From a virus: a stretch of 41,681 nucleotides of DNA. The notes under the pieces are model-generated. The model was not told the origin of the DNA. It saw only the letters and a list, made by a program, of their open reading frames with translations, and made no database searches. Below are positions 19,751 to 41,681 of the stretch, one piece after another. A program made the translations under genes and the position numbers. The stretch's first letter is position 1. Every line of letters begins with the position of its first letter. Location of the stretch: the IMG/VR virus record IMGVR_UViG_3300048930_001427, positions 1-41,681 of that record; one strand, 5' to 3'.

Positions 19751-19786
19751 GACGCCTGCCGGCGCGGGCCGGCCAGCGTTTCGGCT

Positions 19787-20050: not shown

Positions 20051-20077
20051 GGTTCGGGCTCCTTTCGTGCTTGGTGG

Positions 20078-20305
20078 TTACTCTTCGGTGCCGTCGAGAA
20101 AGGCGACGATCGCCGAGAGGCGGTTGTTGACTTCGTTGACGCTGCCGACGTCGGCCCAGTTGATGGGGTGCTCGTCGTTGCCGGGCGCGGGCAGGTCGAA
20201 CAGCAGCTCGCGGATGCGTTCGACCAGGTCTTGCGCGACCAGGTGGGCATTCTCGTAAGCGGCCTCGGCGGTCAGGTTCGGCTTCTTGTTTCGGTTGGCG
20301 GTCAT
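20078..20305 (-). CDS. Small helical hypothetical protein
   Basis: A 75-aa helical acidic protein (L-V-A-Q-D-L-V-E-R-I-R-E-L-L, N-E-V-N-N-R-L-S-A-I-V-A-F-L). GGAG lies 8 nt before the ATG at 20305. It is the first gene of the minus-strand cluster, facing away from the packaging genes across a 170-bp divergent region. No family is recognised. Confidence 0.7.
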   Translation of the reverse strand: MTANRNKKPNLTAEAAYENAHLVAQDLVERIRELLFDLPAPGNDEHPINWADVGSVNEVNNRLSAIVAFLDGTEE

Positions 20306-20475
20306 GCGTGTTCTCCGTTGGTTTGGCGTTTGGGAATTGCGTTCGGACAGTCACACATCAGCCATGCGGGGCGAAACACAGCAAGCGCTGTTGCGCCCGA
20401 TTTCGCCGGAATTCGCCAGGTTTTTCCGGTGGGAACCGCCGCGAATTCGCTTAGCTGTTGGCAAAAGGAGGCGTC
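20306..20475. promoter_or_regulatory. Divergent control region between the minus cluster and packaging genes
   Basis: The only divergent gap in the element, so it must hold promoters for both sides. GAATTCGC (20409-20416) and GCGAATTC (20441-20448) are exact inverted repeats 24 nt apart. GCGAATTCGC at 20441-20450 is itself palindromic. Operator use is plausible. No clear -35/-10 pair was identified. Confidence 0.45.
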
Positions 20476-20682
20476 ATGTCGGGCGATTCGCCGCAACTGA
20501 ACCCGTCGGCGCTAACCGTCGAACAAACGGCTCAAGTCATTTCGGCGGCCGGCGGCAAGCGTTTGTCCGTCGAGCTGATCCGAGCCGACATCGCCGCCGG
20601 CGCGCCGACGAACGAAAACGGAACCATCAATCTGGTTATGTATGCAGCGTGGCTGCTTAAGGACCGGGCGCGTGGCAATTAA
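20476..20682 (+). CDS. Small HTH-like protein upstream of the terminase
   Basis: A 68-aa protein beginning at the ATG at 20476, with a perfect AAAGGAGG 4 nt upstream. The pattern L-T-V-E-Q-T-A-Q-V-I-S ... L-S-V-E-L-I-R-A-D-I-A-A-G-A-P ... L-V-M-Y-A-A-W-L resembles a short winged HTH. The first 55 residues of the adjacent terminase show the same pattern, so the two domains look like paralogues. A small-terminase-like DNA-recognition role is inferred from this and from position. It overlaps the terminase start by 11 bp. Confidence 0.7.
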   Translation: MSGDSPQLNPSALTVEQTAQVISAAGGKRLSVELIRADIAAGAPTNENGTINLVMYAAWLLKDRARGN

Positions 20683-23492: not shown

Positions 23493-23565
23493 CGACGCGG
23501 CGGGGAAGGGCGTGGCGAGGCCAGGTCAGGCAAGGCCTGGCGCGGCGTGGCAAGGCAAGGTTTTT
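23489..23565. repeat. GGCAAGGC-family intergenic repeat, copy 3
   Basis: This fills the gap before the portal gene. It begins GTAGCGACGCG like copy 1 and ends with the 16-mer GGCAAGGCAAGGTTTT, identical to copy 2. The in-between words GGCGAGG, CAGGTCAGG and AAGGCCTGGCGCGG vary. Confidence 0.7.
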
Positions 23566-23579
23566 CACGAAAGCGTAAC

Positions 23580-25034
23580 GTGTTGAGTTGGCTCACAAAC
23601 TTGATTTCCCGTAAGCGCAACGGTGACGGAGCATCGCTCCGGCCCCACCGATTCGTTCGCGGCCGCTACGATGCGGCCTCGACCAGCGACGAAAACCGGC
23701 GGCACTGGGCAAACGCCGACGCCTTGTCGGCCAATGCCGCCAACAGCCCCGAGGTGCGGCGCGTCCTGCGGACTCGCGCCCGCTACGAAACAGCGAACAA
23801 CTCTTACGCTCGCGGCATCGTGTTGACTTTGGCCAATGACGTGGTCGGCACTGGACCGCGACTGCAATTGCTCACGGCGGACGCTGAAGCCAATCGGGCC
23901 ATCGAACGCCAGTTCATGATGTGGTCTAAGGCAACTCGACTGGCCGACAAGCTTCGCACGATGCGGATGGCTCGCGCGACCGATGGCGAAACGTTCGCGA
24001 TCTTGACAGTCAATCCGCTGCTGACAACCGCAGTGCAACTCGACCTGCGCCTGATCGAAGCCGACCAAGTCTGCTCGCCCGATTTGTCGGTGCAAGAGGC
24101 GAACAACATCGACGGCATTGTGCTCGATGAGACAGGCAACCCGGTTGAGTATCACGTCCTGCGGCGTCATCCAGGCGAAGTCGCGTACGGCGCTGGTCGC
24201 GAATTTGACCGCGTGCCGGCTTCAGTCGTCATTCATTGGTTCCGCTGCGACCGGCCGGGCCAAGTCCGCGGCATTCCCGATGTGATGCCGGCACTGCCGC
24301 TCTTCGCCCAACTGCGGCGTTTCACACTTGCCGTGCTGGCGGCCGCCGAGACCGCCGCCGACTTCGCCGGCATTCTCTACACCGACGCACCGGCCAACGG
24401 CGAAGCGGACGCCGCCGAACCATTCGAGCCAATCGAGTTGGAGAAACGAGCACTACTCACAATGCCAGGCGGCTGGCGCATGGACCAGATGAAGGCCGAG
24501 CAGCCTTCGACGACTTACGGCGAGTTCAAACGCGAAATCCTCAACGAGATCGCACGCTGCCTCAACATGCCGGCGAATGTCGCGCGGGCGGACAGTTCGG
24601 GATACAACTACGCCTCGGGTCGGCTCGATCACCAAACCTACTTCAAATCAATCCGCGTCGAGCAATCGCATCTCGAATGCGTTGTGCTCGACCGCATTCT
24701 TTCCGCCTGGCTCGACGAGGCGGCGTTGATCCCCGGCCTGATTCCTTCCGGCCTGCCGCCGTTCTCCACCTGGGACCACCAATGGTTCTGGGACGGCAGG
24801 GAGCATGTCGATCCCGCCAAGGAAGCGTCGGCGCAGGCCACGCGCTTGACCAGTCACACCACGACGCTCGCCGAGGAATACGCTCGCCGCGGGTTGGACT
24901 GGGAAGAGCAACTTCGCCAGCGAGCCAAGGAAGTTGCCCTGATGACCGAACTCGGAATCGCGCCGGCAAAGATCAGTCCAACCACGGTCCCGTCACAGGA
25001 AGAGGAGGAAGCGGATGCCGAGCGAACTCAATGA
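23580..25034 (+). CDS. Phage portal protein, lambda family
   Basis: A 484-aa portal of the lambda gpB type. N-terminal R-Y-D-A-A-x-T-S, N-S-P-E-V-R-R-V-L-R-T-R-A-R-Y-E, N-S-Y-A-R-G-I-V-L-T-L-A-N-D-V-V-G-T-G-P-R-L-Q, later V-I-H-W-F-R-x-D-R-P-G-Q-V-R-G-I-P and N-M-P-A-N-V-A-R-A-D-S-S-G-Y-N-Y-A-S-G-R are family hallmarks. It forms the dodecameric ring at the DNA entry vertex. The GTG at 23580 is used because the in-frame GTG at 23547 lies in intergenic repeat. It overlaps the capsid gene by 20 bp. Confidence 0.92.
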   Translation: MLSWLTNLISRKRNGDGASLRPHRFVRGRYDAASTSDENRRHWANADALSANAANSPEVRRVLRTRARYETANNSYARGIVLTLANDVVGTGPRLQLLTADAEANRAIERQFMMWSKATRLADKLRTMRMARATDGETFAILTVNPLLTTAVQLDLRLIEADQVCSPDLSVQEANNIDGIVLDETGNPVEYHVLRRHPGEVAYGAGREFDRVPASVVIHWFRCDRPGQVRGIPDVMPALPLFAQLRRFTLAVLAAAETAADFAGILYTDAPANGEADAAEPFEPIELEKRALLTMPGGWRMDQMKAEQPSTTYGEFKREILNEIARCLNMPANVARADSSGYNYASGRLDHQTYFKSIRVEQSHLECVVLDRILSAWLDEAALIPGLIPSGLPPFSTWDHQWFWDGREHVDPAKEASAQATRLTSHTTTLAEEYARRGLDWEEQLRQRAKEVALMTELGIAPAKISPTTVPSQEEEEADAERTQ

Positions 25035-27057
25035 ACTGCGGTTGGTAGGGCCGGCGACCGTCGAAGCGACGGCCGATGGCGCGGAGGAGACGCCGGCGCT
25101 CATTCATGTCGCCGCCTACAACGGTGGCCTGATGCGGGTCGCGGAGTTCGGCCGCGTCGTCCTCGACGTGGAAGGCATCGAATCGCCGGAACGTGTGCCC
25201 CTGCTGGCCGACCACGAAAACAGCATCGACGCGGTGCTGGGAAGTGGTACGCCGGCCCGCGCCGAAGGCCGGCTGGCCGTCAATGGCACGCTATCCCGCA
25301 CCAGTGAAAAAGCTCGCCGCGTGATCGAACTAGCCCGCGACGGCGTGCCGTTGCAGGCCAGCGTCGCTGCCGAGCCTCTGCAAACCGAACGGATCGTCAA
25401 GGGAAAGCAGGCCATCGTCAACGGCCGCACGATCCGCGCGGACGACAGCAGTTTCCTCCTCGTGAAACGCTCGCGCCTCAAGCACGTCGCCATCGTCGCC
25501 AACGGGGCGGATGACACGACAACCATCGATATCGCGGCCTCGGCCGCACAACCGCAGAAAGGTGGACTCATGCACGCAAAGCTCCGTGAATGGATTGAGG
25601 GGCGTGGCTTCTCGCCCGACAGCCTCAGCGAACAGCAAGTCACTTCGCTTCAGGCGATGTACGAGGCCGAGCGCGTCGCTCGGGAGGGTGGAGACGACGG
25701 TGAGGCGAACCAGGTGATCGAAGCGGCGCGGCGCGAGCGGGCTCGCCGCACCAAGATCAAGGGTCTGATCGCCGCGGCCATCGACAACAATCCGGGCTGC
25801 GACCTGGATGCCCTCGAACAAATCGCCGACGAGGCCATCAAGGGGGGCTGGACGATCCAGGAAACGGAACTGGCCATTCACCGCGAACTGCTCAAGCGGC
25901 CAAACGTCGGCGTTCCGCGCGCGACCACCTCCTCGTCGATTCCGACGACTCCGGTGCTGGCGGCCGCGCTACTGATGCGCTGCGGTGTGAACGACGACTG
26001 GCTGGCAAAGGACCGCGACTTCGGGCCGCAAGTGGTCGAAGCCGCTTGGAAGCGACGCAGCAGCGGCTTGCATGCGACGATTGCCGCCGCGCTCCAGGCC
26101 GATGGCAAGTCCGCGCCTCACGATGGCTTGGAACTGTTCCACGCCGTGGTCCAGCACCAGATTCAGGCCGGTTTCTCGACGGTCGATCTCCCCGGTCTGC
26201 TGGGCACCGTCGGCAATAAGCTGCTTCTCGATGCGTTTACGCGCGTGGACGGCACTTACGAGCGGATCGCGCAGCAGGCGGACTTCAACAACTTTCTCAC
26301 CTACACGATGTTCCGCCTCGACCATACGGGCGAGTTCGCCAAGGTCGGGCCGACGGGCGAGATCAAGCACGGCAAGCTGAACGAGACGACCTACACGAAT
26401 CGTCTGGAGACGCGCGGCCAGATGCTGACCTACAGCCGCGACGCCGTGATCAACGACGACGTGAACGCCTTCCAGCAACTCTTCGCGTCGGTGGGGCGTA
26501 AGGCGCGCCTGGCGGTGGAGAAAGCGCTGTACAGCGCCGTCATGGAAGCCAGTGATTCGTTCTACACGGCGGCCAAGGGCAATCGCCTCACCGGCACGTC
26601 GTTGTCGGTGGAAGGGCTGGGACTCGGCGAAGCGGCGATGCTCGGGCAAGTGGCTGCGGACGGCGACCCGATCTACAGCCAGCCGGCCATCCTGCTCGTG
26701 CCGCCGGGGCTCAAGTACCTGGCCGACCAACTGTGGACCTCGGCCACCGTGAATCAGTCGCCGGCGAACAACAAGTCGCAGGGGGTCGACAACCCGTACC
26801 GCGGGCGGTTCCGCGTCGAGTCGTCGCCTTACTTGGCGCTCGCAGGCATGCCTGGGGCGTCGAACAGCAACTGGTATCTGCTGGCCGATCCGAACAACCT
26901 GCCGGCGTTCCAGGTCGCGTACCTGCGCGGCCAGCGCCAGCCAACCATCGAAACGGCCGACGCCCAGTTCAACACGCTCGGCATTCAACTGCGGTGCTAC
27001 TTCGACTTCGGCGTCGCCCGGATCGATCATCGCGGCGCGCTGAAGGCCAGCGCGTAA
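25015..27057 (+). CDS. Prohead protease - major capsid protein fusion
   Basis: A 680-aa fused polypeptide. Residues about 20-175 look like the HK97-type prohead protease: P-L-L-A-D-H67-E-N-S-I-D-A-V-L-G-S-G and the L-Q-A-S116-V-A-A-E-P serine motif, giving a plausible His/Ser pair. Residues about 190-270 are charged and helical, like a scaffold/delta domain. Residues about 300-680 are the major capsid protein (phage Mu-like/HK97 fold), ending V-A-R-I-D-H-R-G-A. The protease would release itself and mature the shell. No stop or frameshift separates the parts. The fusion is not unique among phages but is uncommon. Confidence 0.85.
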   Translation: MPSELNELRLVGPATVEATADGAEETPALIHVAAYNGGLMRVAEFGRVVLDVEGIESPERVPLLADHENSIDAVLGSGTPARAEGRLAVNGTLSRTSEKARRVIELARDGVPLQASVAAEPLQTERIVKGKQAIVNGRTIRADDSSFLLVKRSRLKHVAIVANGADDTTTIDIAASAAQPQKGGLMHAKLREWIEGRGFSPDSLSEQQVTSLQAMYEAERVAREGGDDGEANQVIEAARRERARRTKIKGLIAAAIDNNPGCDLDALEQIADEAIKGGWTIQETELAIHRELLKRPNVGVPRATTSSSIPTTPVLAAALLMRCGVNDDWLAKDRDFGPQVVEAAWKRRSSGLHATIAAALQADGKSAPHDGLELFHAVVQHQIQAGFSTVDLPGLLGTVGNKLLLDAFTRVDGTYERIAQQADFNNFLTYTMFRLDHTGEFAKVGPTGEIKHGKLNETTYTNRLETRGQMLTYSRDAVINDDVNAFQQLFASVGRKARLAVEKALYSAVMEASDSFYTAAKGNRLTGTSLSVEGLGLGEAAMLGQVAADGDPIYSQPAILLVPPGLKYLADQLWTSATVNQSPANNKSQGVDNPYRGRFRVESSPYLALAGMPGASNSNWYLLADPNNLPAFQVAYLRGQRQPTIETADAQFNTLGIQLRCYFDFGVARIDHRGALKASA

Positions 27058-27093: not shown

Positions 27094-27429
27094 ATGGCGG
27101 ATTTCATTCAGGATGGCGCGTCCATCGACTATACGCCCGGCAGCGACGTGGCGGCGGGCGACGTTATCGTGCAAGGCGATTTGGTCGGCGTGAGCAAGTC
27201 GCCCATTCCTACGGGACATGTCGGCGCCTTGGCGGTGCAAGGGGTGTTCGACTTCCCCAAGGAAGCCGAAGGAGGCGTGACCTTCGCGGTCGGAGCGATT
27301 GCCTATTGGGACGCCGCCAATAGCTTTGCGGTGGCCACCGATGGTGCGGGCGCCAACAAGCGCCTCGGGAAAGTGCTCGTCGCGGCGGCGGACGCCGATG
27401 CGCTGGTCCGGATTTTGCTCATCCCCTAA
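27094..27429 (+). CDS. DUF2190 capsid decoration-like protein
   Basis: A 111-aa beta-rich protein: D-Y-T-P-G-S-D-V-A-A-G-D-V-I-V-Q-G-D-L-V-G-V, G-A-L-A-V-Q-G-V-F-D-F-P-K, G-A-I-A-Y-W-D-A-A-N, L-G-K-V-L-V-A-A-A-D-A-D. This matches DUF2190, associated with head decoration or cement proteins. CAGGAGA lies 9-10 nt upstream of the ATG. It lies directly after the capsid gene, as expected. Confidence 0.88.
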   Translation: MADFIQDGASIDYTPGSDVAAGDVIVQGDLVGVSKSPIPTGHVGALAVQGVFDFPKEAEGGVTFAVGAIAYWDAANSFAVATDGAGANKRLGKVLVAAADADALVRILLIP

Positions 27430-30367: not shown

Positions 30368-30829
30368 ATGAGCACCCGTTTGGGCATGGACGCGAAACTG
30401 TACCGCAACACCGGCACGTATGTCGCGCCTGTGTGGGCGGAAGTCACCAATGTCAAAGACCTCACGTTGAATCTCGAAAAGGGAGAGGCTGACGTCACCA
30501 CCCGCGCCAATGGCGGTTGGCGGGCGACCGTGGGGACACTTAAAGACGCCAGCATCGACTTTCAAATGGTCTGGGATACGGCAGACGCCGGGTTTGCCGC
30601 GATGCAAGCGGCTTTCTTCGGCAATACGCCGATCGAGTTCGCGGTCATGGATGGCGACATGACCGATCCCGAGTCGGAAGGACTGCGAGCCACGTTTGAC
30701 ATCTTTAACTTCACCCGCAACGAAGCGCTCGAAGAGGCGATCATGGTCGACGTGACCGTCAAGCCGACCTATGCGGACAATCCGCCCGAGTGGATCAACG
30801 GCCAAGGCAGCTCCAGTTCCTCGGCCTGA
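30368..30829 (+). CDS. Major tail (tube) protein candidate
   Basis: A 153-aa beta-rich protein: G-M-D-A-K-L-Y-R-N-T-G-T-Y, W-A-E-V-T-N-V-K-D-L-T-L-N-L-E-K-G-E-A-D-V-T-T-R, then G-G-W-R-A-T-V-G-T-L-K-D-A-S-I-D-F-Q-M. The V-K-D-L-T-L ... A-D-V-T-T-R pattern is common in siphovirus tail-tube proteins. The C-terminus ends in a serine run (S-S-S-S-S-A), echoing the serine-rich tail protein further down. Position before the tail chaperones supports the call. CAGGAGAA precedes the ATG. Confidence 0.78.
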   Translation: MSTRLGMDAKLYRNTGTYVAPVWAEVTNVKDLTLNLEKGEADVTTRANGGWRATVGTLKDASIDFQMVWDTADAGFAAMQAAFFGNTPIEFAVMDGDMTDPESEGLRATFDIFNFTRNEALEEAIMVDVTVKPTYADNPPEWINGQGSSSSSA

Positions 30830-31695: not shown

Positions 31696-33696
31696 ATGGC
31701 GACAGGACAATCCATCCGCGCCGGCGCGGCCTACATCGAGCTCTCGACGCGCGACAGCAAGCTCATCAAAGGGCTGCGCCGCGCGTCGCAGCGATTGAAG
31801 GCGTTCGGGGCCAGCGTGCGGGCGATGGGGCTGAAGTTCGTGGCGCTGGGCGGGGCCGTGCTCGCGCCGCTGATCGGCATGGTCCGGCACTTCGCCGACG
31901 TGGGAGACAAGCTCAACAAGATGTCGATCCGCACCGGCGTGTCCGCCGAGGCGCTTTCCGAGATGGGGTTCGCGGCCGAACAGTCAGGGGCTGATCTGGA
32001 AACGTTGGAAGCGGGGCTGCGGCGGATGCAGGCGTCGGTGCTCGATGCGGCCACCGGCTCCAAGACGGCGCAGGAAAGCCTGGCCATGCTCGGCGTCACC
32101 GTCGAGCAGCTGGCCGACCTCACGCCCGAGGCGCAATTCAAGCTGCTCGCGGATCGCCTCTCGCAAGTCGAAGACCCGACGCTCAAGGCGGCGCTGGCGA
32201 TGCGGCTGTTCGGCAAGAGCGGGCAGAAACTCATTCCGCTGCTCTCGGCTGGCGCGAAGGGGATCGAAGAGCTGCAGGCGGAGGCCCGGCGGCTCGGCCT
32301 GTCGGTCAGCACCCAGGACGCCCAGGCGGCCGCCGATTACGCCGACGCCTGGAATCGTCTGACCCGCACGCTCAAGGCGGCGGCATTCGCCATCGGCGCG
32401 GCGCTGGCGCCGATGTTGACGAAATTGATGGGCTACGTAACCCGCCTTGTGGTCAACGTCATCAACTGGATCAAACAGAACAAAGCCCTGGTCGTCACCG
32501 TGTTCAAGATCGCCGTCGCGGTGATTGCGGCAGGCGTGGCCCTGATCATTCTGGGCGGCATCATCTCGGGTGTCGGCATGGTCATCGGCGCGGTGGTCAC
32601 GATCATCGGCGCGATTGGCGCGGCCATCGGCGTCTTGGGCCAGGTCATCGCAGCGTTGTTGACGCCTATTGGACTCGTGAGCATCGCGGTGGTCGCGCTC
32701 GGCGCGTACCTCTTATATGCGTCGGGCCTCGGCGGCAAGGCGCTGGCCTGGCTCGGCGAGCAGTTCGAAGTGCTCAAAAAAGACGCCTTGGCGTCGTGGC
32801 AGGGGATCAGCGACGCCTTGGCCGCGGGCGACTTGGCGCTGGCGGCGAAGATTGTCTGGCTGGCGCTGAAGATGGAATGGCAGCGGGGGATTCACTTCCT
32901 CAACGGGCTGTGGATCGGGGCCAAGGAGTTTTTTATGGCGCTCTGGACCGACGCCGTGTTCGGCATCGCCAAGATTCTCAACAACGGCTGGGCCGCCATC
33001 GAAGTCGGCTGGAGCGAAACGGTCGGGTTCTTGGCCGACGCCTGGAGCATCTTCACCAACCTGCTCACCAAAACGTGGCACAACACGATCGGCTTCATCA
33101 AGAAAGCCTGGGTGCGGCTCAAGGCCCTGTTCAGCGAGGACGTGGACGTCGACGCCGAAGTGAACCGGATCAACCAGGAGACCGCGGCCGCCACCGGCGC
33201 TGCCGACAACAAGATGCTCGAGGCCGTCGGCCAGCGGGATCGTGAGCGGACAGCGCGTCAGCAGCAGATCGAGCAGGATCGGGCCGGCACGGAAGGGGAG
33301 TTGGGGAACATGCAGGCTGCAGCGCATGCGCGGCGGCAACAGCAGTTCGCCGGCGACCTGGCCAAGACGGAAGGCGAGCTGGCAGGCGCGCGCAAAGAGT
33401 GGCAAGACGCCATTGCGGAAGCGGCCAAAAAACGGGCCGCGGCGGGCAAAGACGGTGAAGGGGGCGAGCCGGAGTGGCTCAAAAAGGCGAAAGCCATGCT
33501 GGCTGGCGGCGCTGGCATTCTCGGCGACGAGCAGCGCAAAGTCGAAGCCAAGGGGACGTTCAACGCGCTGGCCGCGCGCGGCATCGGCGCAGACACCCTG
33601 GCCGAGCGAACCGCCCGCGCCGCCGAGCAGATCGTGATCAACACCAAAGACCTGCTGGCGCAGGCCAAGCAAGGGAAGCTCGTATTCGCCGCGTAG
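31696..33696 (+). CDS. Tail tape measure protein
   Basis: A 666-aa protein. The N-terminus has R-A-G-A-A-Y-I-E-L-S-T-R-D-S-K-L-I-K-G-L and M-G-L-K-F-V-A-L-G-G-A-V-L-A-P, then M-S-I-R-T-G-V-S-A-E-A-L-S-E-M-G-F-A-A-E-Q-S-G, typical of tape measures. A hydrophobic block (about 265-345) and alanine-rich coiled coils (about 480-640) follow. It sets tail length. At about 1.5 A per residue, 666 aa predicts roughly 100 nm, a short siphovirus tail. It follows the frameshifted chaperone by 3 bp. Confidence 0.88.
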   Translation: MATGQSIRAGAAYIELSTRDSKLIKGLRRASQRLKAFGASVRAMGLKFVALGGAVLAPLIGMVRHFADVGDKLNKMSIRTGVSAEALSEMGFAAEQSGADLETLEAGLRRMQASVLDAATGSKTAQESLAMLGVTVEQLADLTPEAQFKLLADRLSQVEDPTLKAALAMRLFGKSGQKLIPLLSAGAKGIEELQAEARRLGLSVSTQDAQAAADYADAWNRLTRTLKAAAFAIGAALAPMLTKLMGYVTRLVVNVINWIKQNKALVVTVFKIAVAVIAAGVALIILGGIISGVGMVIGAVVTIIGAIGAAIGVLGQVIAALLTPIGLVSIAVVALGAYLLYASGLGGKALAWLGEQFEVLKKDALASWQGISDALAAGDLALAAKIVWLALKMEWQRGIHFLNGLWIGAKEFFMALWTDAVFGIAKILNNGWAAIEVGWSETVGFLADAWSIFTNLLTKTWHNTIGFIKKAWVRLKALFSEDVDVDAEVNRINQETAAATGAADNKMLEAVGQRDRERTARQQQIEQDRAGTEGELGNMQAAAHARRQQQFAGDLAKTEGELAGARKEWQDAIAEAAKKRAAAGKDGEGGEPEWLKKAKAMLAGGAGILGDEQRKVEAKGTFNALAARGIGADTLAERTARAAEQIVINTKDLLAQAKQGKLVFAA

Positions 33697-33708
33697 CACG
33701 GATGAAAC

Positions 33709-34494
33709 ATGTCCATCACCATCGACGAACGATACAACAGCCGCGAGGCGACCGAGAGCGAAGACCCCAGCACCGAGCTCTTATATGTCGTCCAGGGGAC
33801 CGACGACGATCTGACGGTCAAAGGACTCGTCGCGGCCACCGCGCCGGCGTTCTACGCGGGCCTCAAACGCGATAGCTTCACGATTTCCACCGTGGGCGGC
33901 GGCGTGTGGGAATGTGCGGTGCGCTACGTGAAGCTCGAAGACGAGTCGCAGTTCACGTTCGACACCGGCGGCGGCAACCAGCACATCAGCCAGAGCATGG
34001 TGACGGTCGGGCGCTACGCCGCCCCCGGCGAGATCGCCCCGGACTTCCAAGGCGCAATCGGCGTCAACCAGGATCAGATCGAGGGGACGGATATCACGGT
34101 CCCGGTCTATAACTTCACCGAGACGCACCAGATCGACGATGCGCTGGTCACCGGCGATTACAAGGCGGCCCTCTTCTTTCTGACCGGCAAGGTGAACGAC
34201 GCGCCGTTCAAAGGGTTCGCCCGCGGCGAAGTGTTGTTTTTGGGTGCGAGCGGCGCGAAACGCGGCTTTGACGATTGGGAGATCACCTATCGCTTCGCGG
34301 CCAGTCCCAACGTGGTCAACCTGCACCTGGGGAACATCGTGGTCGCCAGCAAAGAGGGCTGGCATTACCTCTGGATTCGGTTCGCCGACGATGAAGACAA
34401 CGTGGCCAAGGTGCTGATCAAGAAGCCGATCACGGCTTACGTCGAGCAGGTCTATGAGTATGGTGATTTTTCCGGCCTGGGGATCGGAACCTAA
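33709..34494 (+). CDS. Tail-tip-region protein, family not recognised
   Basis: A 261-aa beta-rich protein with no membrane segment. Segments such as W-E-C-A-V-R-Y-V-K-L, D-D-W-E-I-T-Y-R-F-A-A-S-P-N, H-Y-L-W-I-R-F-A-D-D and V-E-Q-V-Y-E-Y-G-D-F-S-G-L-G-I-G-T are typical of structural proteins. Position after the tape measure suggests a distal tail or baseplate-like protein. It is coupled to the serine-rich gene through a TAATG overlap. Not identified by family. Confidence 0.7.
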   Translation: MSITIDERYNSREATESEDPSTELLYVVQGTDDDLTVKGLVAATAPAFYAGLKRDSFTISTVGGGVWECAVRYVKLEDESQFTFDTGGGNQHISQSMVTVGRYAAPGEIAPDFQGAIGVNQDQIEGTDITVPVYNFTETHQIDDALVTGDYKAALFFLTGKVNDAPFKGFARGEVLFLGASGAKRGFDDWEITYRFAASPNVVNLHLGNIVVASKEGWHYLWIRFADDEDNVAKVLIKKPITAYVEQVYEYGDFSGLGIGT

Positions 34495-36365
34495 TGGGCG
34501 ACCGCTTCAAGAAGACGCAGACCGGTCAGCCGCTGGAGGTTTCCTCCGAGGTGTGGAACGCCTTCTTGGACGCGGTCCGCGCTCAAAAGGGGAAGAAGCA
34601 CGACGAGCTCGCCGACGCGCTCGACCAGATTCGCCAGGCCGACATCATCAAGCTGCGCAACAGCAGCGGCGACGACCGCGCGCGGTTCCATGTGCTGGGC
34701 ATCTCGTCACCCATCATCACGCCGACTTCGCACCTGCGCGAATTTAAGAACCAGGTGGCCCTCGAAGGCGTTATCCCCCAGCATCCCGAGCATTTCGGCC
34801 GGTTTGCGATCCTGCTCGACCCGCTACGCGCGGACAAGATCGGGCGGGCGTGGGTCAGCGGCACTTGCCCGGCCTACATCGAGGTCGAGGACGAGTGCCA
34901 CGAGTTCGCCGACATCAAGCCTGGCGATCCGACGACACTATTGAGCCGGCCCGCCGGTTCCGCCCGCATCCTCTGGCGCGAAGGGGGCCTGGGCGGACAG
35001 TGGGCAGTGGTGCGGCTATCGAACACGCCCGACGACTTCTGGCGCTTCCGCTTGCTGGAGCCGCTCGCCCATTGCGGCAGCGCTCAAGCGGCGCGGCTCG
35101 TCTACAGCGGCGGCGCCTGGTGCGACCTCGAGTGCCCGCTGACGGTGTACGACTCGCTGGGGCTGGCCGACGGCGAGCGTTCGCCGTCAGCACCGTCATC
35201 GTCGTCGTCGTCGAGCGGCGAACCGACCGCGCAAGGCACGGTCGGCTGGGCCAAGTGGATGGCCGATAGCGAACGATGGGAGGTCGTCACCCTCACGGAG
35301 AGCGACTGCTGCTCATCCAGCAGCTCCTCGATCCCACCGCCGCCACCACCGCCGCCATCGTCGTCATCATCATCCAGCAGCAGTTCGTCGAGCAGTAGTT
35401 CGTCGTCATCGTCGAGCAGCAGCAGTTCGCCGTCGTCATCATCGTCATCGTCATCATCGTCATCGTCATCGTCGAGCAGCGAACCGCCGTCGAGTAGTGA
35501 GCAGCCACCGAGTAGCGATTCGTCATCGTCATCGAGCAGCAGCAGTTCGTCGAGCGGGCCGCCGCCGCCAAGCAGCAGTGAATCATCGTCGTCGTCCAGT
35601 TCCAGCAGCAGTTCATCGAGCAGCAGTTCGTCGGAGCCCTCGTCCAGCGAATCGTCATCGTCGGAAAGCAGTTCCTCGGAATGCCCGCCGCTGAGCGGCT
35701 CGGTGACTTTTCAAGAGACCGATGTGCGCTGCGAGGGGGGCCAACTCAATGTCTATAAGCGGGACGTGACGATCAAGATCGAACGCTGCACACTCACCAA
35801 GACGGAAGGCGCGTGGCAGCATAGTCACCAAGCGGGTTGCTGTTGCTGCGAGTGTTGCAGCAGTTCGTCGTTATCGTCGAGCAGTAGCAGTTCGTCGAGT
35901 CAACCGCCGCCGAGCAGCAGCGAGCCATCGTCGAGCGGGCCTCCGCCGAGCAGCAGTGAATCATCGTCAGCGCCGCGTAGCAGTAGTTCGTCCTCATCGT
36001 CGAGCAGCAGTTCGTCGAGCAGCGAACCGCCGTCGAGCAGTGAGCAGCCACCGAGTAGCGGTGATTCATCAGGTATTGGCTCGTCGAGCAGTAGTTCGTC
36101 GAGTTCGTCGGATTCGGAGACGCCGTCGAACCCGCCGAGTTCCGCGCCGCCAACATCCAGTTCGCCCCCGACGCCTCCGGGCGAAGGTTCGTCCAGCTCA
36201 TCGAGTTCGTCGAGCGATTCAGATACACCGCCGAACCCGCCGAGCTCCGCGCCGCCAACATCCAGTTCGCCCCCGACGCCTCCGAACGAAGGTTCGTCCA
36301 GCTCGTCGAGTTCGTCGAGCGATTCAGATACACCATCCAGCCCGCCCTGGAGCGGTTCGTCCTAA
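34494..36365 (+). CDS. Serine-rich repeat tail protein (putative fibre/adhesin)
   Basis: A 623-aa protein. Residues 1-225 form a folded N-terminal domain (P-L-E-V-S-S-E-V-W-N-A-F-L-D-A-V-R ... Q-V-A-L-E-G-V-I, I-L-W-R-E-G-G-L-G-G-Q-W-A-V-V-R-L), probably docking to the tail. Two low-complexity blocks (about 274-399 and 455-620) consist mainly of serine with short E-P-P and E-Q-P-P breaks. A small Cys-bearing domain (about 400-455, V-T-F-Q-E-T-D-V-R-C ... C-C-C-C-E-C-C) separates them. The last block carries 35-aa repeats. Such a stalk is an ideal O-glycosylation substrate, and glycosyltransferase genes follow 13 bp later. Confidence 0.85.
   Translation: MGDRFKKTQTGQPLEVSSEVWNAFLDAVRAQKGKKHDELADALDQIRQADIIKLRNSSGDDRARFHVLGISSPIITPTSHLREFKNQVALEGVIPQHPEHFGRFAILLDPLRADKIGRAWVSGTCPAYIEVEDECHEFADIKPGDPTTLLSRPAGSARILWREGGLGGQWAVVRLSNTPDDFWRFRLLEPLAHCGSAQAARLVYSGGAWCDLECPLTVYDSLGLADGERSPSAPSSSSSSSGEPTAQGTVGWAKWMADSERWEVVTLTESDCCSSSSSSIPPPPPPPPSSSSSSSSSSSSSSSSSSSSSSSSPSSSSSSSSSSSSSSSSEPPSSSEQPPSSDSSSSSSSSSSSSGPPPPSSSESSSSSSSSSSSSSSSSSEPSSSESSSSESSSSECPPLSGSVTFQETDVRCEGGQLNVYKRDVTIKIERCTLTKTEGAWQHSHQAGCCCCECCSSSSLSSSSSSSSSQPPPSSSEPSSSGPPPSSSESSSAPRSSSSSSSSSSSSSSSEPPSSSEQPPSSGDSSGIGSSSSSSSSSSDSETPSNPPSSAPPTSSSPPTPPGEGSSSSSSSSSDSDTPPNPPSSAPPTSSSPPTPPNEGSSSSSSSSSDSDTPSSPPWSGSS
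35313..35690 (+). repeat. Serine-codon microsatellite block 1
   Basis: Nearly uninterrupted TCG, TCA and AGC/AGT serine codons in the reading frame of the tail protein, broken only by proline and glutamate codons. TCG/TCA alternates with AGC in runs, so slippage would change length in frame. Confidence 0.9.
35860..36362 (+). repeat. Serine-codon block 2 with 105-bp tandem repeats
   Basis: A second serine block. From about 36131 it contains a near-exact 105-bp (35-aa) unit repeated from 36236 (P-P-S-S-A-P-P-T-S-S-S-P-P-T-P-P then a serine run and S-D-S-D-T-P), followed by a truncated third unit ending in the stop codon. Confidence 0.88.
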
Positions 36366-36378
36366 GGAGCAACGTTCG

Positions 36379-37431
36379 ATGCAAGTGTTTTTGATGGGCT
36401 ATCCCGGCGACTTGGGCGGGGCCAGCACCGAGGCCTGGCACACGGTGAAGATCTGGCGGCGCTTTGGCGTCGAGGTCCACCTCATCCCGACCTGGGGTGC
36501 CGACGAGCGGTGGAAGGCTCGCCTCGATGCGCTCGGCTGCGTCACCCACGCCGCGACCGCCGAGACGCTCGCCGACGTGCCTGGACTGGCCGGCGGCACG
36601 GTCGTCAGCTTCTGCAACAGCGCGTTTCTGGCCAATGCCAGGCGGCTGCGCGAACTGGGTTGCCGAATGGTGTGGGTCAACTGCATGACCTGGCTGTTCA
36701 ACGCCGAGCGGGACTTCTATCGCGCGTGCGGCCCATTCGACGCTTTTGTATTCCAAAGCGAATTCCAACGCGGGCAACTCGAGCCGCAACTCGCCGAGTT
36801 CGGCTACCGGAGCGCGCAAGGGCATCTGATCCGCGGCGCATTCGACGCCGACGAGTGGCCCTTCTGTCCGCGGCCGCATGCCGCCGGTGAAGCGTTCGTC
36901 GTCGGTCGCGCCGCGCGCCCCGACTTGGACAAGTGGTCGAGCAACACCTGGCCGATCTACCAGCGCATCCAGTATCACCCCAAGCGCGCGCTGATGCTCG
37001 GCATGAACGAACGGACGCACACCAAACTGGGCCCAGCGCCGGCGTGGTCGGATTGCCTCAAGCCGCTGGCGATCACGGCGCAGGACTTTTTCCGCCAGTT
37101 GCATTGCACCTTGCCGGTCAACGGCGGCGCGCGCGAGAACTGGCCCCGCGTCGGCCTGGAGGCGATGGCGATGGGCGTGCCCGTCGTCACGCAAAACGAG
37201 TGGGGCTGGCGCGAAATGATCGAGCACGGCGTGACCGGGCTGCTCGGCAAGTGCGACGAGGAGCTCGCGCACTACACCGCCCTGCTCGCCTACGACGAAG
37301 ACCTGCGGATGCGGATCGTCCATGCCGCCCGCGCGCGACTCGTCAACGAACTGGCCAATCCCGACGTGATCTGGGCTGCCTGGCAACGCGCGTTTGATTC
37401 ATTGGCCGTTGCACGGAGGGCCGCCGCATGA
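36379..37431 (+). CDS. Glycosyltransferase, GT4-like (GT-B fold)
   Basis: A 350-aa protein starting at the ATG at 36379 with AAGGAG 9 nt upstream, 13 bp after the serine-rich gene. The C-terminal half carries the GT4-type donor-binding block E-N-W-P-R-V-G-L-E-A-M-A-M-G-V-P-V-V (an E-x7-E motif, about 252-260), then E-M-I-E-H-G-V-T-G-L-L. The N-terminus has the Y-P-G-D-L-G-G-A-S-T-E-A acceptor-side loop. It would transfer a sugar from a nucleotide-sugar donor. Tight linkage to the serine-rich gene suggests that protein as acceptor (inference). Its stop overlaps the next start (ATGA). Confidence 0.85.
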   Translation: MQVFLMGYPGDLGGASTEAWHTVKIWRRFGVEVHLIPTWGADERWKARLDALGCVTHAATAETLADVPGLAGGTVVSFCNSAFLANARRLRELGCRMVWVNCMTWLFNAERDFYRACGPFDAFVFQSEFQRGQLEPQLAEFGYRSAQGHLIRGAFDADEWPFCPRPHAAGEAFVVGRAARPDLDKWSSNTWPIYQRIQYHPKRALMLGMNERTHTKLGPAPAWSDCLKPLAITAQDFFRQLHCTLPVNGGARENWPRVGLEAMAMGVPVVTQNEWGWREMIEHGVTGLLGKCDEELAHYTALLAYDEDLRMRIVHAARARLVNELANPDVIWAAWQRAFDSLAVARRAAA

Positions 37432-38165
37432 TCACCGCAGTCATTCTCAATTGGAAACGCCCGGCGAACGTCGCCCGCATCGTGGACGGCTGGCGCGCCG
37501 GCGGCATCGTCACCGAGGCCATCGTCTGGAACAACAACCCGGCCGAGCGGTTCCGCCACGACTGGGCGAAGGTGATCAACGTCGAACAAGACCTGGGCCT
37601 TTATACCCGCTTCGCGGCGGCGTGCCTCGCGCGCCACCCGTGCGTTCTCATCCAGGACGACGACATCGAACTGCCGACCGAAACGCTGCGCGCCTTGTAC
37701 GACGCCTGGCGGCAAGACCCCGATATTCTGCACGGCATCTTCGGGCGTCGCCCCAAAGCGGACGGTTCCTACGACCCGCGGAATGTGGCGAGCGGCGAAG
37801 CGCCCGTGGTGCTCACGCGCGCGCTCTTGACGTCGCGGCGCTACGCCGCCGACTTCTTCGACGTTGCACCCCAGTTCGAGACGATCCAGCGCGACGGAAA
37901 GCCCGCCGGCAACGGCGAAGACATCCTGTTTAGTTATACGGCGCTGCGCCACACCGGCCGCCTGAATCGTGTGCATCGCCTGCCCGTCACCGGCCGCCTG
38001 AATCGTGTGCATCGCCTGCCCGTCACCGAGCTCCCCGCGCCGCATTCGATCCACGGCCGCAATTGGTCTGCACATCTAGCTCATCGCAGTCGCTTGATGC
38101 GGGCGTGCGAAGCCTGGCTCAAAGGAGAATCGCATGAAGATCGCCGCGATCTGCTGCACGTATAA
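37428..38165 (+). CDS. Glycosyltransferase, GT-A-like
   Basis: A 245-aa protein beginning I-T-A-V-I-L-N-W-K-R-P-A-N-V, with D77-D-D79 in L-I-Q-D-D-D-I-E-L, the metal/nucleotide-sugar DxD of GT-A enzymes. N-G-E-D-I-L-F-S-Y at about 164 resembles the acceptor-side E-D motif. The C-terminal region contains a perfect 12-aa duplication (T-G-R-L-N-R-V-H-R-L-P-V) caused by a 36-bp tandem repeat. The gene end overlaps the next gene by 32 bp. The fold assignment is reasonable, the sugar unknown. Confidence 0.8.
   Translation: MITAVILNWKRPANVARIVDGWRAGGIVTEAIVWNNNPAERFRHDWAKVINVEQDLGLYTRFAAACLARHPCVLIQDDDIELPTETLRALYDAWRQDPDILHGIFGRRPKADGSYDPRNVASGEAPVVLTRALLTSRRYAADFFDVAPQFETIQRDGKPAGNGEDILFSYTALRHTGRLNRVHRLPVTGRLNRVHRLPVTELPAPHSIHGRNWSAHLAHRSRLMRACEAWLKGESHEDRRDLLHV
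37952..38023 (+). repeat. Perfect 36-bp tandem duplication inside a glycosyltransferase gene
   Basis: Units 37952-37987 and 37988-38023 are identical and add twelve residues in frame. A few bases of a third unit follow. Perfect identity implies a recent event. Confidence 0.95.
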
Positions 38166-38877
38166 GCGCCCGACGCTCTTGGCCGAGGCCATCGAATGCT
38201 TCGTGCGCCAAGATTACCCGGCCGAGCTGCGCGAGCTGATCGTGCTCGATGACGCCGGCCAGTATGGCCACCAGCGTGGCGCTGGCTGGCGCGTGGTTTC
38301 ACTCCCGGTTCGTTTCCGCACGCTCGGCGAAAAGCGGAACGCCTCGGCGGCGCTGGTGTCGGCCGACGTGGACGCCTACTGCGTGTGGGACGATGACGAC
38401 ATCTATCTCCCCTGGCATATGAGCGCCGCCGCTGCGGCGCTGGCTGAGGCGGACTATACGATCCCGACCGTCATCTACAACGACAAGCGCAGTCGCCTGG
38501 AGCGGAAGACGAACCAGTACCTGTTCCACGGCGCGTGGGCGTTCCGCCGCGAGGCGTTCGAACGCGTCTGCGGCTATCCCTTCATGCAGAGCGGCCAGGA
38601 CCAGGGACTGCTCAAGCGGTTCAAGGCCGCGAACCTGCGTCGCTCCGATCCGATCAAGCACGACGGGCGGCCGAGTTATGTCTATCGCTGGTACACGGCC
38701 CATTCGCATCACATCTCGGCGCTGGGCAAGGACGGCTACGAGCGGCTCGGCCGCGTCGCCGCCGGCCGCGCCGCCACGATCACGCCCAGCTGGTCCCGCG
38801 ACTGGCTCGCGCTGCGCGCCGCCGCTTCCGCTTCGTCCACACAGGATCAATCGCATGAACATTCAAGCGCGCAATGA
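38134..38877 (+). CDS. Glycosyltransferase family 2-like
   Basis: A 247-aa GT-A protein: A-A-I-C-C-T-Y-K-R-P-T-L-L-A-E-A-I-E-C-F, L-I-V-L-D-D-A-G-Q-Y, G-E-K-R-N-A-S, and V-W-D86-D-D-D89-I-Y-L-P. All are standard GT2 elements. The C-terminal 80 residues contain H-G-A-W-A-F-R-R-E-A-F-E and Q-D-Q-G-L-L-K-R-F, the usual acceptor-side region. AAAGGAGAA lies 6 nt upstream of the ATG. It overlaps its neighbour on both sides, so the five genes of the cassette are co-translated. Confidence 0.86.
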   Translation: MKIAAICCTYKRPTLLAEAIECFVRQDYPAELRELIVLDDAGQYGHQRGAGWRVVSLPVRFRTLGEKRNASAALVSADVDAYCVWDDDDIYLPWHMSAAAAALAEADYTIPTVIYNDKRSRLERKTNQYLFHGAWAFRREAFERVCGYPFMQSGQDQGLLKRFKAANLRRSDPIKHDGRPSYVYRWYTAHSHHISALGKDGYERLGRVAAGRAATITPSWSRDWLALRAAASASSTQDQSHEHSSAQ

Positions 38878-39484
38878 GACGTATATCTCCCGCTTCATCC
38901 GCGGCACGCCCGACGCCATGTACGACATCGGCGTAGGCCCCAAATCGGAATGGCGAACGCTGGGAGCGAAGTTCCCCGCGATGCGCATCTACGGCTGCGA
39001 GCCCGAGCCAAAACAGCACGCCAAGCTGCTCAACGCGAAATTCCCCGGCCCGCTGGCCCAGGTCGCGATCGGTGAGACCGCAGGCGTCGCGACGCTGCAC
39101 GTTCCGACGCACAATGCGATGTGCGGCAGCCTGTTTCCGGTGCCCTACGCCAACGCGACGTGCGAAGTGGAGGTCTGGACGCTGGACTACTTCGACGAGC
39201 AGAATTGCCTGCCCGCCCGCATCCTGCTCTGGCTCGACATCGAGGGGAGCGAGCTCGCAGCGCTGCGCAGCGGGCGTCATCTCTTGGCGTCGGGGCGGGT
39301 GCGGTGGATCAACCTCGAAGAACGACGCGCCGGCCACCGGCCCGCGGAAGGCTGGTGCGATCCTGGCGAACTCCACGCCTTTCTCATCGAGAACGGATAC
39401 CAGCGCGTGGCCGAATACAACCGCCATGCCACGCACCAGGACGTCATCTACGTTCACAAGGATGAAAAGCCATGCTCCGCGTGA
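38855..39484 (+). CDS. FkbM-like methyltransferase
   Basis: A 209-aa protein with Y-D-I-G-V-G-P-K-S-E (SAM-binding motif I), G-C-E-P-E-P (motif II), T-L-D-Y-F, and L-L-W-L-D-I-E-G-S-E-L-A-A-L, the hallmark FkbM stretch, at about 127. FkbM enzymes O-methylate sugars and polyketides. In this context it would cap or decorate glycans built by the neighbouring transferases. It starts at the ATG at 38855, inside the previous gene, and overlaps the next by 13 bp. Confidence 0.85.
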   Translation: MNIQARNETYISRFIRGTPDAMYDIGVGPKSEWRTLGAKFPAMRIYGCEPEPKQHAKLLNAKFPGPLAQVAIGETAGVATLHVPTHNAMCGSLFPVPYANATCEVEVWTLDYFDEQNCLPARILLWLDIEGSELAALRSGRHLLASGRVRWINLEERRAGHRPAEGWCDPGELHAFLIENGYQRVAEYNRHATHQDVIYVHKDEKPCSA

Positions 39485-40194
39485 TCACCATGACCGCCTA
39501 CCGCCGGCCGGCCTACACCCGCGAGGTGCTCGAGGCGCTCGTCAGGTGCGACGGCATCGCCGACTGGATTCTGCTGCCCAACGTCGAACCGGGCCACGAA
39601 GAAGTGATCGGGGCCTTCCGCGACTGGAATGCCTGTGAGTCGCGCTTGTTCGTCAACCGCAACCGGCTGGGGTTGAACAAGAACACGCACGACGCGCTGT
39701 TCCGCGCGTTCCAGATTCGCGCCGACGTGATCGTCCACCTGGAGGACGACACAGTCCCCAGCCCCGACGCGCTGCGGTATTTCGACTGGGCGGTGCGCGA
39801 TCTGCTGATCCCCGACGTGAAGTCGTCCGACGGCCATCAAATCCTTCTGGCGTCGGGCTACAACAAGCCGAAGTCGGAACCAACGCCCGAGCAAAGCCAT
39901 GTCTGCGCGACCCGCCCGATTTGGTCGCCCTGGGGCTGGGCCGTAGATCGCCGCCGCCTCGTCTGGCTGATCGCCCACTGGTGTACGCGCAACAAGAAGT
40001 GCTTCACCTGCCAATTCAAATCGCACTACCGCCGCACCCGCCGCGAGGTGTTTCCGACGCTCAGCCGCATCCAGAACATCGGCTACGAGCAAGGCGAGAA
40101 CGACCGAACGCCGGAGTGGTACCGGGCGAACCATCGGACGCCGTGGGTCGCCCCAACCGCTGCCGATGGATCGTTCTCGCTCCGAAGGAGTTAA
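39472..40194 (+). CDS. Glycosyltransferase, GT-A-like, last gene of the cassette
   Basis: A 240-aa protein: R-V-I-T-M-T-A-Y-R-R-P-A-Y-T-R-E-V-L-E-A-L at the N-terminus, N-R-N-R-L-G-L-N-K-N-T-H, and V-H-L-E91-D-D93-T-V-P-S as the metal motif. P-W-G-W-A-V-D-R-R-R-L and a C-terminal G-Y-E-Q-G-E-N-D-R-T-P-E-W-Y follow. The pattern is that of GT-A transferases related to the eukaryotic-type GnT-I (GT13) shape, but only the fold is claimed. It ends the plus-strand operon. Confidence 0.8.
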   Translation: MLRVITMTAYRRPAYTREVLEALVRCDGIADWILLPNVEPGHEEVIGAFRDWNACESRLFVNRNRLGLNKNTHDALFRAFQIRADVIVHLEDDTVPSPDALRYFDWAVRDLLIPDVKSSDGHQILLASGYNKPKSEPTPEQSHVCATRPIWSPWGWAVDRRRLVWLIAHWCTRNKKCFTCQFKSHYRRTRREVFPTLSRIQNIGYEQGENDRTPEWYRANHRTPWVAPTAADGSFSLRRS

Positions 40195-40316
40195 ACCCTT
40201 GGTCAAATCCAGGCTGCGTGAGGGCACGTGTCCGTTTGACTTAACGAACGTCTAAACCTGTAGATGCTTGCTTACGCGAGAAATTTGCACAGATTGAGGC
40301 CAGCCAGCTCAATACT

Positions 40317-41063
40317 TCATCGTGACGTGTCCGATTGCGTCTTGTCATTGGGCGTGACAACAAGTGGTGGAAATGAGGCAAACGCGCTCCATTTACCATA
40401 GTGCAGGTTCAACAGACAATCGATGCTAAACGCTCGTATGGTGCGACGCAAACTGGGGACGGGAACTTGTACGCTTCGCAGTGGAAAGCACGCCTTGAGC
40501 ACCTTCTCTGCTCCGCATGGCGATACAGCATATGCCGGGGTTCCAAAGGCGTTGTCGAGTCGGCGCACTAACGAAGGTTGAAAGCAATGGCGGAATTGTC
40601 GCAGGGATACGGTGCTAATCGGGCGATTGTCAAACGATGATAGATAGCTCTGAATACCGGGAATGAGTTCCATCGAAATCGCTGAATCGAAGTTGTACCC
40701 AAATAGCATAAAGTCCCAGTCCACTGGAAGTTGCGCGTGCGCGATTTGCCATTGGGTGACGAAGTCATGCCGAAAGATGGCGTCATCTTCGCAAACAAAG
40801 AAAGGGCGGTCTTGCCGTTGTGCCGTGAGTAAGACGTTGCGGTGACTCAATGCGCAGGCAATCTGTCCAGTATTGAAGCCTATCTCTCCGGTGATAAGGC
40901 CTTCTTGACGCACCTGATCGATGTTCAACGCATGGCCGTCTACCGCGCTCACGAATTCAAAACGTAGTCCCGGCGTCTCTTCGTTCCAGGCAAGGAATTG
41001 TGCTCGACGATCCACTCGACGTTCAAGGTTTAGCACACGGATTGACAGTTCTGGTACAGGCAT
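40317..41063 (-). CDS. Glycosyltransferase family 25-like protein
   Basis: A 248-aa protein from the ATG at 41063. A TTG eight codons upstream (41087) is an alternative. I-R-V-L-N-L-E-R-R-V-D-R-R-A-Q-F, G-Q-I-A-C-A-L-S-H-R-N-V-L and F-F-V-C-E-D-D-A-I-F are GT25 (LPS beta-1,4-galactosyltransferase) signatures. The H-R and E-D-D residues are the catalytic and metal sites. It lies convergent to the phage genes, in DNA of visibly lower GC content. It is either the host's glycan locus beyond the prophage end or separate cargo. Confidence 0.85.
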   Translation of the reverse strand: MPVPELSIRVLNLERRVDRRAQFLAWNEETPGLRFEFVSAVDGHALNIDQVRQEGLITGEIGFNTGQIACALSHRNVLLTAQRQDRPFFVCEDDAIFRHDFVTQWQIAHAQLPVDWDFMLFGYNFDSAISMELIPGIQSYLSSFDNRPISTVSLRQFRHCFQPSLVRRLDNAFGTPAYAVSPCGAEKVLKACFPLRSVQVPVPSLRRTIRAFSIDCLLNLHYGKWSAFASFPPLVVTPNDKTQSDTSR

Positions 41064-41138
41064 CGTTCGTGAGGTCGTAGAATCCAAGAAACGCTACTCT
41101 CAATCAAAAGGTCGATTGGAACTAGAAGATGACTTGCA

Positions 41139-41681
41139 TCAACAATTGGCAGAAGATGTGTAATTGGCGTAGACCTTCTCCTCGATCAACGGAGATCGTA
41201 ATAGCTCATTGATTTGTCGCTTGACCGCCGCCCGCTGATCGTTCGTGAGATAGACGGAACGCGCTAATTCAACGAACTTTGGCCCGAAGTCTTGTATTCG
41301 CTCGCAACTTCTAATCTCATCTTCAATGCGCCAAAGCGCCTGGTTGATCTCACGCAGCTTGTTTGTCAGTTCCACCAAGGAGGGTGTCGGAGAAGGAGCG
41401 TATGCACCGAGCGCTTGGCGGAGCGATTCAAGCTCGCGTCGAACGTTGGACAGTTTTACCGCGTCCTTCAGATTGCGCTCCTTAATCTCCAGAATGGTGA
41501 CCTTGTCGATCAATTCACCTGCAGATGTTGCAATCTGGAACTCTGAAGTGGGCCCAGGACAACTTTGAGGCAGCAGCCGATCGCGTCGTCCCTGCTGAAC
41601 AAGTCGCAACTCATCGGAGATGGCTTGAAACACGTTCGCCCAGTCCTTAAATTCTGGTTGACGGAACAAGCGCATGGTCGG
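41139..41681 (-). CDS. C-terminus of a GT9/DUF6165-type protein (partial, runs off the window)
   Basis: 180 residues are visible and the gene continues past the right edge. The beginning, P-T-M-R-L-F-R-Q-P ... D-W-A-N-V-F, resembles the end of heptosyltransferase-like GT9 proteins. From about residue 50 it matches DUF6165: G-E-L-I-D-K-V-T-I-L-E-I-K-E, K-L-S-N-V-R-R-E-L-E-S-L, R-E-I-N-Q-A-L-W-R-I-E-D-E-I-R, and F-V-E-L-A-R-S-V-Y-L-T-N-D-Q-R-A-A-V-K-R-Q-I-N, ending E-E-K-V-Y-A. DUF6165 often accompanies glycosyltransferases, and its role is unknown. Reading frame and stop are intact. Confidence 0.75.
   Translation of the reverse strand, partial: PTMRLFRQPEFKDWANVFQAISDELRLVQQGRRDRLLPQSCPGPTSEFQIATSAGELIDKVTILEIKERNLKDAVKLSNVRRELESLRQALGAYAPSPTPSLVELTNKLREINQALWRIEDEIRSCERIQDFGPKFVELARSVYLTNDQRAAVKRQINELLRSPLIEEKVYANYTSSANC

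Follow-up and report, generated by a model that had tools for sequence, protein, structure and literature searches.

A serine-stalked virion protein encoded beside its own putative glycosylation cassette in planctomycete phages

The sequence analyzed here, called the window, is the 41,681-base IMG/VR record IMGVR_UViG_3300048930_001427, which itself has no attached host genome. Downstream of the tape measure gene lies an open reading frame (ORF; 34494-36365) for a protein of 623 amino acids, 216 of which (35%) are serine, followed by five enzyme genes that end at 40194; all six are on the plus strand. The protein consists of an N-terminal base (codons 1-272; 34494-35309), a first serine stalk (codons 273-396; 35310-35681), a 59-residue Cys-rich module (ETDVRC...GCCCCECC; codons 397-455; 35682-35858) that separates the stalks, and a serine/proline-rich second stalk (codons 456-623 plus the stop; 35859-36365); both stalks are read directly from the sequence. 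The first enzyme gene, a family 4 glycosyltransferase (GT4), starts at 36379, 13 bp past the stop of the serine-rich gene and downstream of an AAGGAG motif. The next four start at 37428, 38134, 38855, and 39472, each overlapping its neighbor. A preliminary description had reported a 623-residue protein with two serine stalks and five coupled, overlapping genes 13 bp on, and its coordinates and gene kinds are correct.

The serine-rich protein belongs to no Pfam or NCBIfam family and gave only a 21-residue low-complexity PHROG match. It starts with MGDRFKKTQTG and ends with SSPPWSGSS, its maximum Kyte-Doolittle hydropathy over 19 residues (KD19) is 0.61, and the sequence contains neither a signal peptide nor a wall anchor. 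The base and the Cys-rich module are conserved among relatives, the module being kept in many of them (including L018, with a weaker form in L028). Stalk length is highly variable. The serine-stalked relatives are proteins of 447-865 residues, and many phages have runs of 20-41 serines. Five serine codons are used in the window gene, drawn from the TCN box and the AGY box alike (TCG 80, AGC 57, AGT 32, TCA 28, and TCC 19), and adjacent serine codons are identical at a frequency of 0.32 compared to 0.25 expected under independence. No single silent change interconverts TCN and AGY codons, so their mixture indicates that serine itself is maintained at the protein level. Slippage as the sole origin of the tract was rejected on the same codon mixture.

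The fold of the base was predicted with AlphaFold2 (AF2). A model built with 10 close homologues was unusable (pLDDT 39), and one built with 25 diverse homologues reached a pLDDT of 77 with a core above 90. Residues 46-179 adopt a predicted capsid-cement or head-fiber-base fold that was matched by Foldseek and VIA-align to proteins of HFTV1 (Z 12.0), FCWL1 (Z 9.3), T1 (Z 9.1), and TW1 (Z 7.4) and to phi29 gp12 (Z 8.7) and gp8.5 (Z 7.2-7.8). Phage decoration or appendage proteins make up the best matches throughout, and it is safe to regard the 34494 product, on this model, as a putative virion fiber or decoration protein. The base shares its predicted fold with the phi29 gp8.5 head fiber and the cement proteins of T1, HFTV1, TW1, and lambda (gpD) at Z 5-12 but only 5-15% identity. 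The window protein differs from these in its long serine stalks and in having its gene downstream of the tape measure. The window also encodes a separate cement protein (PF09956, 1.8e-21), whose gene follows the capsid gene at 27094-27429. A 261-residue gene without a Pfam or PHROG family match (33709-34494, plus strand) sits between the tape measure and the fiber gene, whose start it overlaps (TAATG), and also precedes the fiber N-domain in relatives. The place after the tape measure, the conserved linkage to 33709-34494, and the N-domain fold together argue for a virion protein. Sharing a fold does not define where on the virion the protein resides: gene order suggests the tail, and the fold suggests the capsid or a fiber base. 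Given the N-domain fold, the earlier term 'tail fiber' is corrected to virion fiber or decoration protein.

The five enzymes are recognizable by family. The GT4 is the first and constant gene and the proposed initiator (36379-37431; PF00534, 5.7e-11, 42.7 bits against a cut-off of 26.4), and its E253-x7-E261 motif is invariant in the 11 GT4s aligned. It is followed by a GT64-like GT-A enzyme (37428-38165; PF09258, 7.4e-10, 39 against 21.3 bits; DDD at residues 77-79) that in the window holds a 12-residue internal duplication, GRLNRVHRLPVT; the GT64-like pair gave no match when used as a query against the Protein Data Bank (PDB). Next are a GT2 (38134-38877; PF00535, 1.9e-6; WDDDD) and an FkbM methyltransferase, the proposed glycan O-methyltransferase (38855-39484; PF05050, 2.6e-11, 44.4 against 22.7 bits; TIGR01444, 39.2 bits against a cut-off of 37.7). 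The last gene encodes a GT-A/GT2-like enzyme (39472-40194; weak PF13641 match, 7.5e-4; LEDD) that is conserved in L002, L008, L015, and L028 and has one weak tblastn match among deposited phages. The DxD and E-x7-E motifs noted earlier are present as DDD in the GT64-like enzyme, DDDD in the GT2, EDD in the last transferase, and E253-x7-E261 in the GT4. When the window is compared with L008, each of the five genes has a ratio of nonsynonymous to synonymous substitution rates (dN/dS) of 0.09-0.17, showing that they are under strong purifying selection. KD19 is at most 1.32 for every cassette protein, which indicates no transmembrane segment. Enzymes without a transmembrane stretch and an acceptor without a signal peptide fit cytoplasmic modification.

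The order tape measure, 261-residue gene, serine-rich gene, and GT4 recurs in more than 20 contigs, comprising viral contigs and prophages in metagenome-assembled genomes (MAGs) of Pirellulaceae, Planctomycetales, and Phycisphaerae, with a gap to the GT4 of mostly 12-29 bp. The synteny that the preliminary description proposed to seek in related planctomycete prophages is thus found. This recurrence and the low dN/dS show that the arrangement is not due to chance. The fiber base and the GT4 had no tblastn match among 50,697 deposited phage records. Fiber-base homologues were collected by scans blind to the GT4. A GT4 lies downstream in 15 of 15 serine-stalked homologues (L002, L003, L004, L005, L008, L009, L010, L015, L016, L017, L019, L154, L156, L157, and L158), within 30 bp in 14 and at 2.0 kb in L015; it was counted from its start alone in L003 and L157, where the contigs end, and the L005 copy is damaged. 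No GT4 was found in the 0.75-7.7 kb of downstream sequence searched for the seven homologues with other C termini of collagen-like, globular, or GSG type (L161, L162, L163, L164, L165, L166, and L175), among which L163 is GSG-rich. The L161 homologue (8001-9074) carries collagen-like GPTG repeats and has a weak MptE-like match downstream. The probability of 15/15 versus 0/7 is about 6e-6 with kinship ignored. Stalked and non-stalked states are interspersed in the tree, where L166 and L163 are placed close to clades with stalks. L155, sister to the window's clade, is 5% serine and has no GT4 start within its 183 downstream bases.

The GT4 also follows serine-rich fiber genes with unrelated N termini (L018 and L195). 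A serine-rich ORF, defined as one having a 40-residue window with at least 50% serine, is found within 3 kb of the GT4 at 33 of 40 informative phage-type loci (36 of 40 at a 40% threshold). Only two such ORFs occur in 322 kb of flanking sequence more than 5 kb from the GT4, and these are the associated poly-serine RHS genes of L048 and L137. In the L171/L173/L174 lineage, serine/glycine stretches flank a Hint-like segment, and a GT25-sulfotransferase fusion (PF01755 plus PF13469) lies directly downstream instead of the GT4; L174 additionally has GT32-like genes directly downstream of the fiber. Stalked fibers thus adjoin modifying enzymes even when the enzyme family differs. The Hint-like segment was recognized by eye, and L171 gave no Pfam match. 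These Hint/intein-like fibers (L171 8001-9632, L173 8001-9611, and L174 8001-9656) are possibly self-cleaving and sulfated.

The genes that follow the GT4 vary between phages. In L009 they encode a radical SAM protein (PF04055, 3.2e-6), a methyltransferase-like protein, and a GT2 fusion; in L010 a GT2 fusion, an FkbM enzyme, and a GT32-like protein; and in L025 a GH130-like protein and a pyruvyltransferase. L008, L015, and L016 have an additional methyltransferase-like gene. The radical SAM gene, also present in L017 and L043, encodes a small CxxxCxxC protein directly after the GT4 (L009 4229-4990, L017 8600-9358, and L043 11054-11815). These gene contents suggest a fixed first step performed by the GT4 and exchangeable finishing steps. 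The site just past the cassette is a cargo hot spot that holds antiphage defense genes in related prophages (DrmD, HmaA/HmaB, MkoA and DrmC-like, and PDC-S15; L008 16802-19681, L019 11999-18798, L009 7171-12163, and L002 16846-17661).

Profile searches for the GT4 in 392 and 398 planctomycete genomes identified a distant chromosomal clade with 27-32% identity to the phage GT4s. A serine-rich ORF lies within 3 kb at 12 of 22 informative loci of this clade, and no phage capsid gene was seen nearby in the chromosomes where the GT4 adjoins poly-serine proteins. The neighbors are often poly-serine RHS giants (PF05593 in L048 and L126), and the one in L053 ends in 49 serines. Proteins combining poly-serine with RHS/YD repeats near the distant GT4 were located at L048 4569-11615, L126 418-7005, L125 14493-19484, L134 1-2392, and L137 1-5212. 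Scanning 392 genomes for 22-codon WSN runs proved too unspecific, since Asp/Glu-rich genes read in antisense fit the pattern too; only individually listed genomes were used, and genuine serine tracts were picked by eye from the listed DNA. Long serine runs are scarce in these genomes. G306 and G396 (7.7 Mb each) have a single genuine Ser/Thr tract of at least 14 codons, and the gene that holds it is 0.74-0.78 kb away from the GT4; the two genomes share one orthologous locus (GT4s 86% identical) and are not independent. The only such tract in G388 is a prophage fiber. In G273 just one tract has 18 codons or more, and its gene lies 134 bp upstream of the GT4. Two tracts are present in G372, one 2 kb from the GT4 and the other on a short contig (L091) without a GT4. 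No such tract appears in the whole-genome listings of G264, G298, and G201, which have a GT4 without a serine-rich neighbor.

Several observations weigh against a GT4 dedicated to poly-serine. The L192 GT4 (55% identity) lies directly behind a 341-residue virion gene with 6% serine, and the whole L028 cassette follows a gene with merely short SSSEEE linkers; these two loci show that long poly-serine is not strictly required. Ten of the 22 informative chromosomal loci have no serine-rich gene nearby. In L005, a deletion within the cassette, possibly an assembly error, removed most of the GT4 and GT64 genes while shorter serine stalks were kept. Related sequences within the counts are not independent. 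Further exceptions are a GT2-GT4 fusion behind a 13%-serine gene (L138) and fibers with DSSAP or GSG repeats in place of poly-serine (L193/L194). The GT4 may be able to use other acceptors that contain serine, or different ones.

Among 388 genomes, GT64 was found in two, both times at the prophage locus, and the last transferase is intact at the same two loci only, with fragments or distant matches elsewhere. The next-best GT4 matches in three host MAGs are generic (E about 1e-7 to 1e-11), the exception being L055, a short contig that carries part of a second copy. An origin of the transferases in host lipopolysaccharide (LPS) loci was rejected: apart from that copy, the host MAGs hold only generic GT4s outside prophage loci, and nothing comparable to GT64 or the last transferase is found at other loci of the 388 genomes. 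The preliminary description had named homologues consistently found in host LPS loci without the serine-rich gene as a finding that would speak against its proposal, in which the serine-rich virion protein is the substrate of the transferases. Such homologues were not found, GT64 and the intact last transferase being confined to prophages among the 388 genomes. The proposal gains from this result and from the synteny, and its acceptor is still our inference.

Lysogenic conversion is quite unlikely; in this scenario the transferases would shut out other phages by changing the host surface polysaccharide, and the serine-rich neighbor would be incidental. The GT4, GT2, and FkbM families are typical of surface-polysaccharide clusters, and exopolysaccharide families appear as weak best matches; the minus strand has a GT25 gene close to the cassette, and L192 has a GT4 without poly-serine. 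Against these points, the cassette genes, which overlap, come after the tape measure and fiber in a single late unit, and the GT4 tracks serine stalks across unrelated fiber genes and chromosomes. The cassette also differs from a gtr-type seroconversion cluster in having neither a membrane flippase nor membrane transferases, no protein exceeding the KD19 of 1.32, and the absence of GT64 and the intact last transferase from host genomes outside prophages speaks against conversion as well.

A different virion acceptor is also unlikely. The targets of the enzymes would then be capsid or tail-tube proteins, with the serine stalk serving as a mere flexible linker, as in the secreted Saccharophagus enzymes that use poly-serine linkers between domains (PMC2386152), and retention of the GT4 in L028 and L192 with little or no poly-serine agrees with this. 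Yet fibers without serine stalks also lack the GT4 while the tail genes are still present, and the distant GT4 stands beside chromosomal poly-serine proteins with no capsid gene seen nearby. It is very improbable that the tract is a functionless low-complexity expansion and the cassette a hitchhiking moron that closes the late operon. The length variation among relatives (proteins of 447-865 residues) and the slight excess of identical adjacent codons are what such an expansion would leave, but the mixed TCN and AGY codons, the 20-41-serine runs kept in many phages, the constant GT4 linkage, and the strong purifying selection all argue otherwise.

The proposed glycosylation of the serine stalks by the cassette has a counterpart in the serine-rich repeat (SRR) adhesins Fap1, GspB, and the SRRPs. 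In those loci, Gtf1/2 adds GlcNAc to serine and variable enzymes extend the glycan (PMC5207161, PMC6973325). The likeness lies in a serine-rich acceptor whose non-repeat domain sits between two serine regions and in an adjacent initiating transferase accompanied by variable extending transferases (PMC5207161, PMC6973325). The window protein has this layout, with stalks 273-396 and 456-623 on either side of the Cys-rich module. There is one GT4 rather than a GtfA/GtfB pair and no DUF1975 match in the Pfam scan. At E of at most 1e-3, the PDB profile search with the GT4 matched BshA-type and PglA-type enzymes among other GT4s, and no match carried a GtfA/GtfB label. The ten Pfam-scanned genes of 31696-41675 include no accessory Sec component (SecA2/SecY2/Asp). 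The phage acceptor also differs in being a virion protein without a long signal peptide or wall anchor, and the phage cassette in having a methyltransferase, with radical SAM or pyruvyltransferase genes in relatives and sulfotransferases in a sister lineage. The SRR parallel drawn in the preliminary description therefore survives for the acceptor layout and the adjacent transferases and fails for GtfA/GtfB, accessory Sec, signal peptide, and anchor. Judged from its genes, the phage locus is one that would work like SRR-adhesin glycosylation, not an SRR family member by descent.

Transferases of the mycobacteriophages Che8 and Rita are thought to glycosylate virion proteins, and masking was proposed (PMC11256854). 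The acceptor there is the major capsid protein, whereas the proposed acceptor here is a poly-serine fiber encoded directly upstream. Saccharophagus and Teredinibacter enzymes have long serine runs between domains, and the excerpted text of that report notes no dedicated adjoining glycosyltransferase (PMC2386152); here a transferase lies 13 bp away and is tracked across lineages. Because such linkers show that serine tracts need not mean glycosylation, the co-occurrence with the GT4 matters most.

The remainder of the window has a temperate siphovirus-type gene set recognized by PHROG matches: a serine integrase (497-2068), a 783-residue terminase (20642-22993), a portal (23547-25034), a capsid-protease (25015-27057), a major tail protein (30368-30829), and the tape measure (31696-33696), together with recombination and replication genes. 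A planctomycete host is supported by the prophages L008-L010 in Planctomycetota MAGs. Residues 89-478 and 481-759 of the terminase match different PHROGs, and an inserted segment is possible. A 551-residue ORF without a PHROG match (18845-20500) lies in a region with a strong AT skew (-0.30). The minus strand at 40317-41675 encodes a GT25 (PF01755, 2.7e-13) and a DUF6165 protein convergent to the cassette. The DNA there is lower in GC (54%) and may be cargo or host flank.

The reading we favor, with a probability of about 0.74, is that the 34494 protein is a virion fiber or decoration protein with a cement-type base whose serine stalks are glycosylated by its own cassette. We infer the acceptor, the sugar, the order of steps, and the benefit from the observed gene order, families, motifs, co-occurrence, selection, and predicted fold. 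The protein would be expressed late, from a transcription unit that also contains the genes of the tape measure and of its modifying enzymes. While the protein is in the cytoplasm, either ahead of assembly or in the course of it, the GT4 would add the first sugar to stalk serines, the GT64-like, GT2, and last transferases would extend the glycan, and the FkbM enzyme would O-methylate it, as their families suggest. The product would be a glycan-coated, mucin-like stalk. Such a stalk would probably withstand proteolysis and make the fiber stiffer; it may also hide the particle or offer sugars for adsorption. Swapping of the enzymes after the GT4 between phages would change the glycan quickly while the initiating step stays.

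A broader proposal, to which we give somewhat less than an even chance, is that one GT4 family initiates a planctomycete poly-serine O-glycosylation common to viruses and cells. It would act on mucin-like phage fibers and on cellular poly-serine RHS/YD and other poly-serine proteins, with exchangeable finishing enzymes (methyl, pyruvyl, and radical SAM, and sulfate in a lineage without the GT4). From the loci compared, putative sugar-coated serine stalks look widespread in phages and bacterial genomes. If the favored reading is true, a virus with a dedicated acceptor and its own glycosylation line would be a viral counterpart of mucins and SRR adhesins. The setting is uncultured planctomycete phages whose fiber base and GT4 are unmatched in deposited phage records. 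It predicts protection of the virion and alteration of phage surface chemistry by enzyme swapping, both of which are testable. The work puts forward a candidate family of serine O-glycosyltransferases and points to a possible unrecognized class of poly-serine glycoproteins in Planctomycetota.

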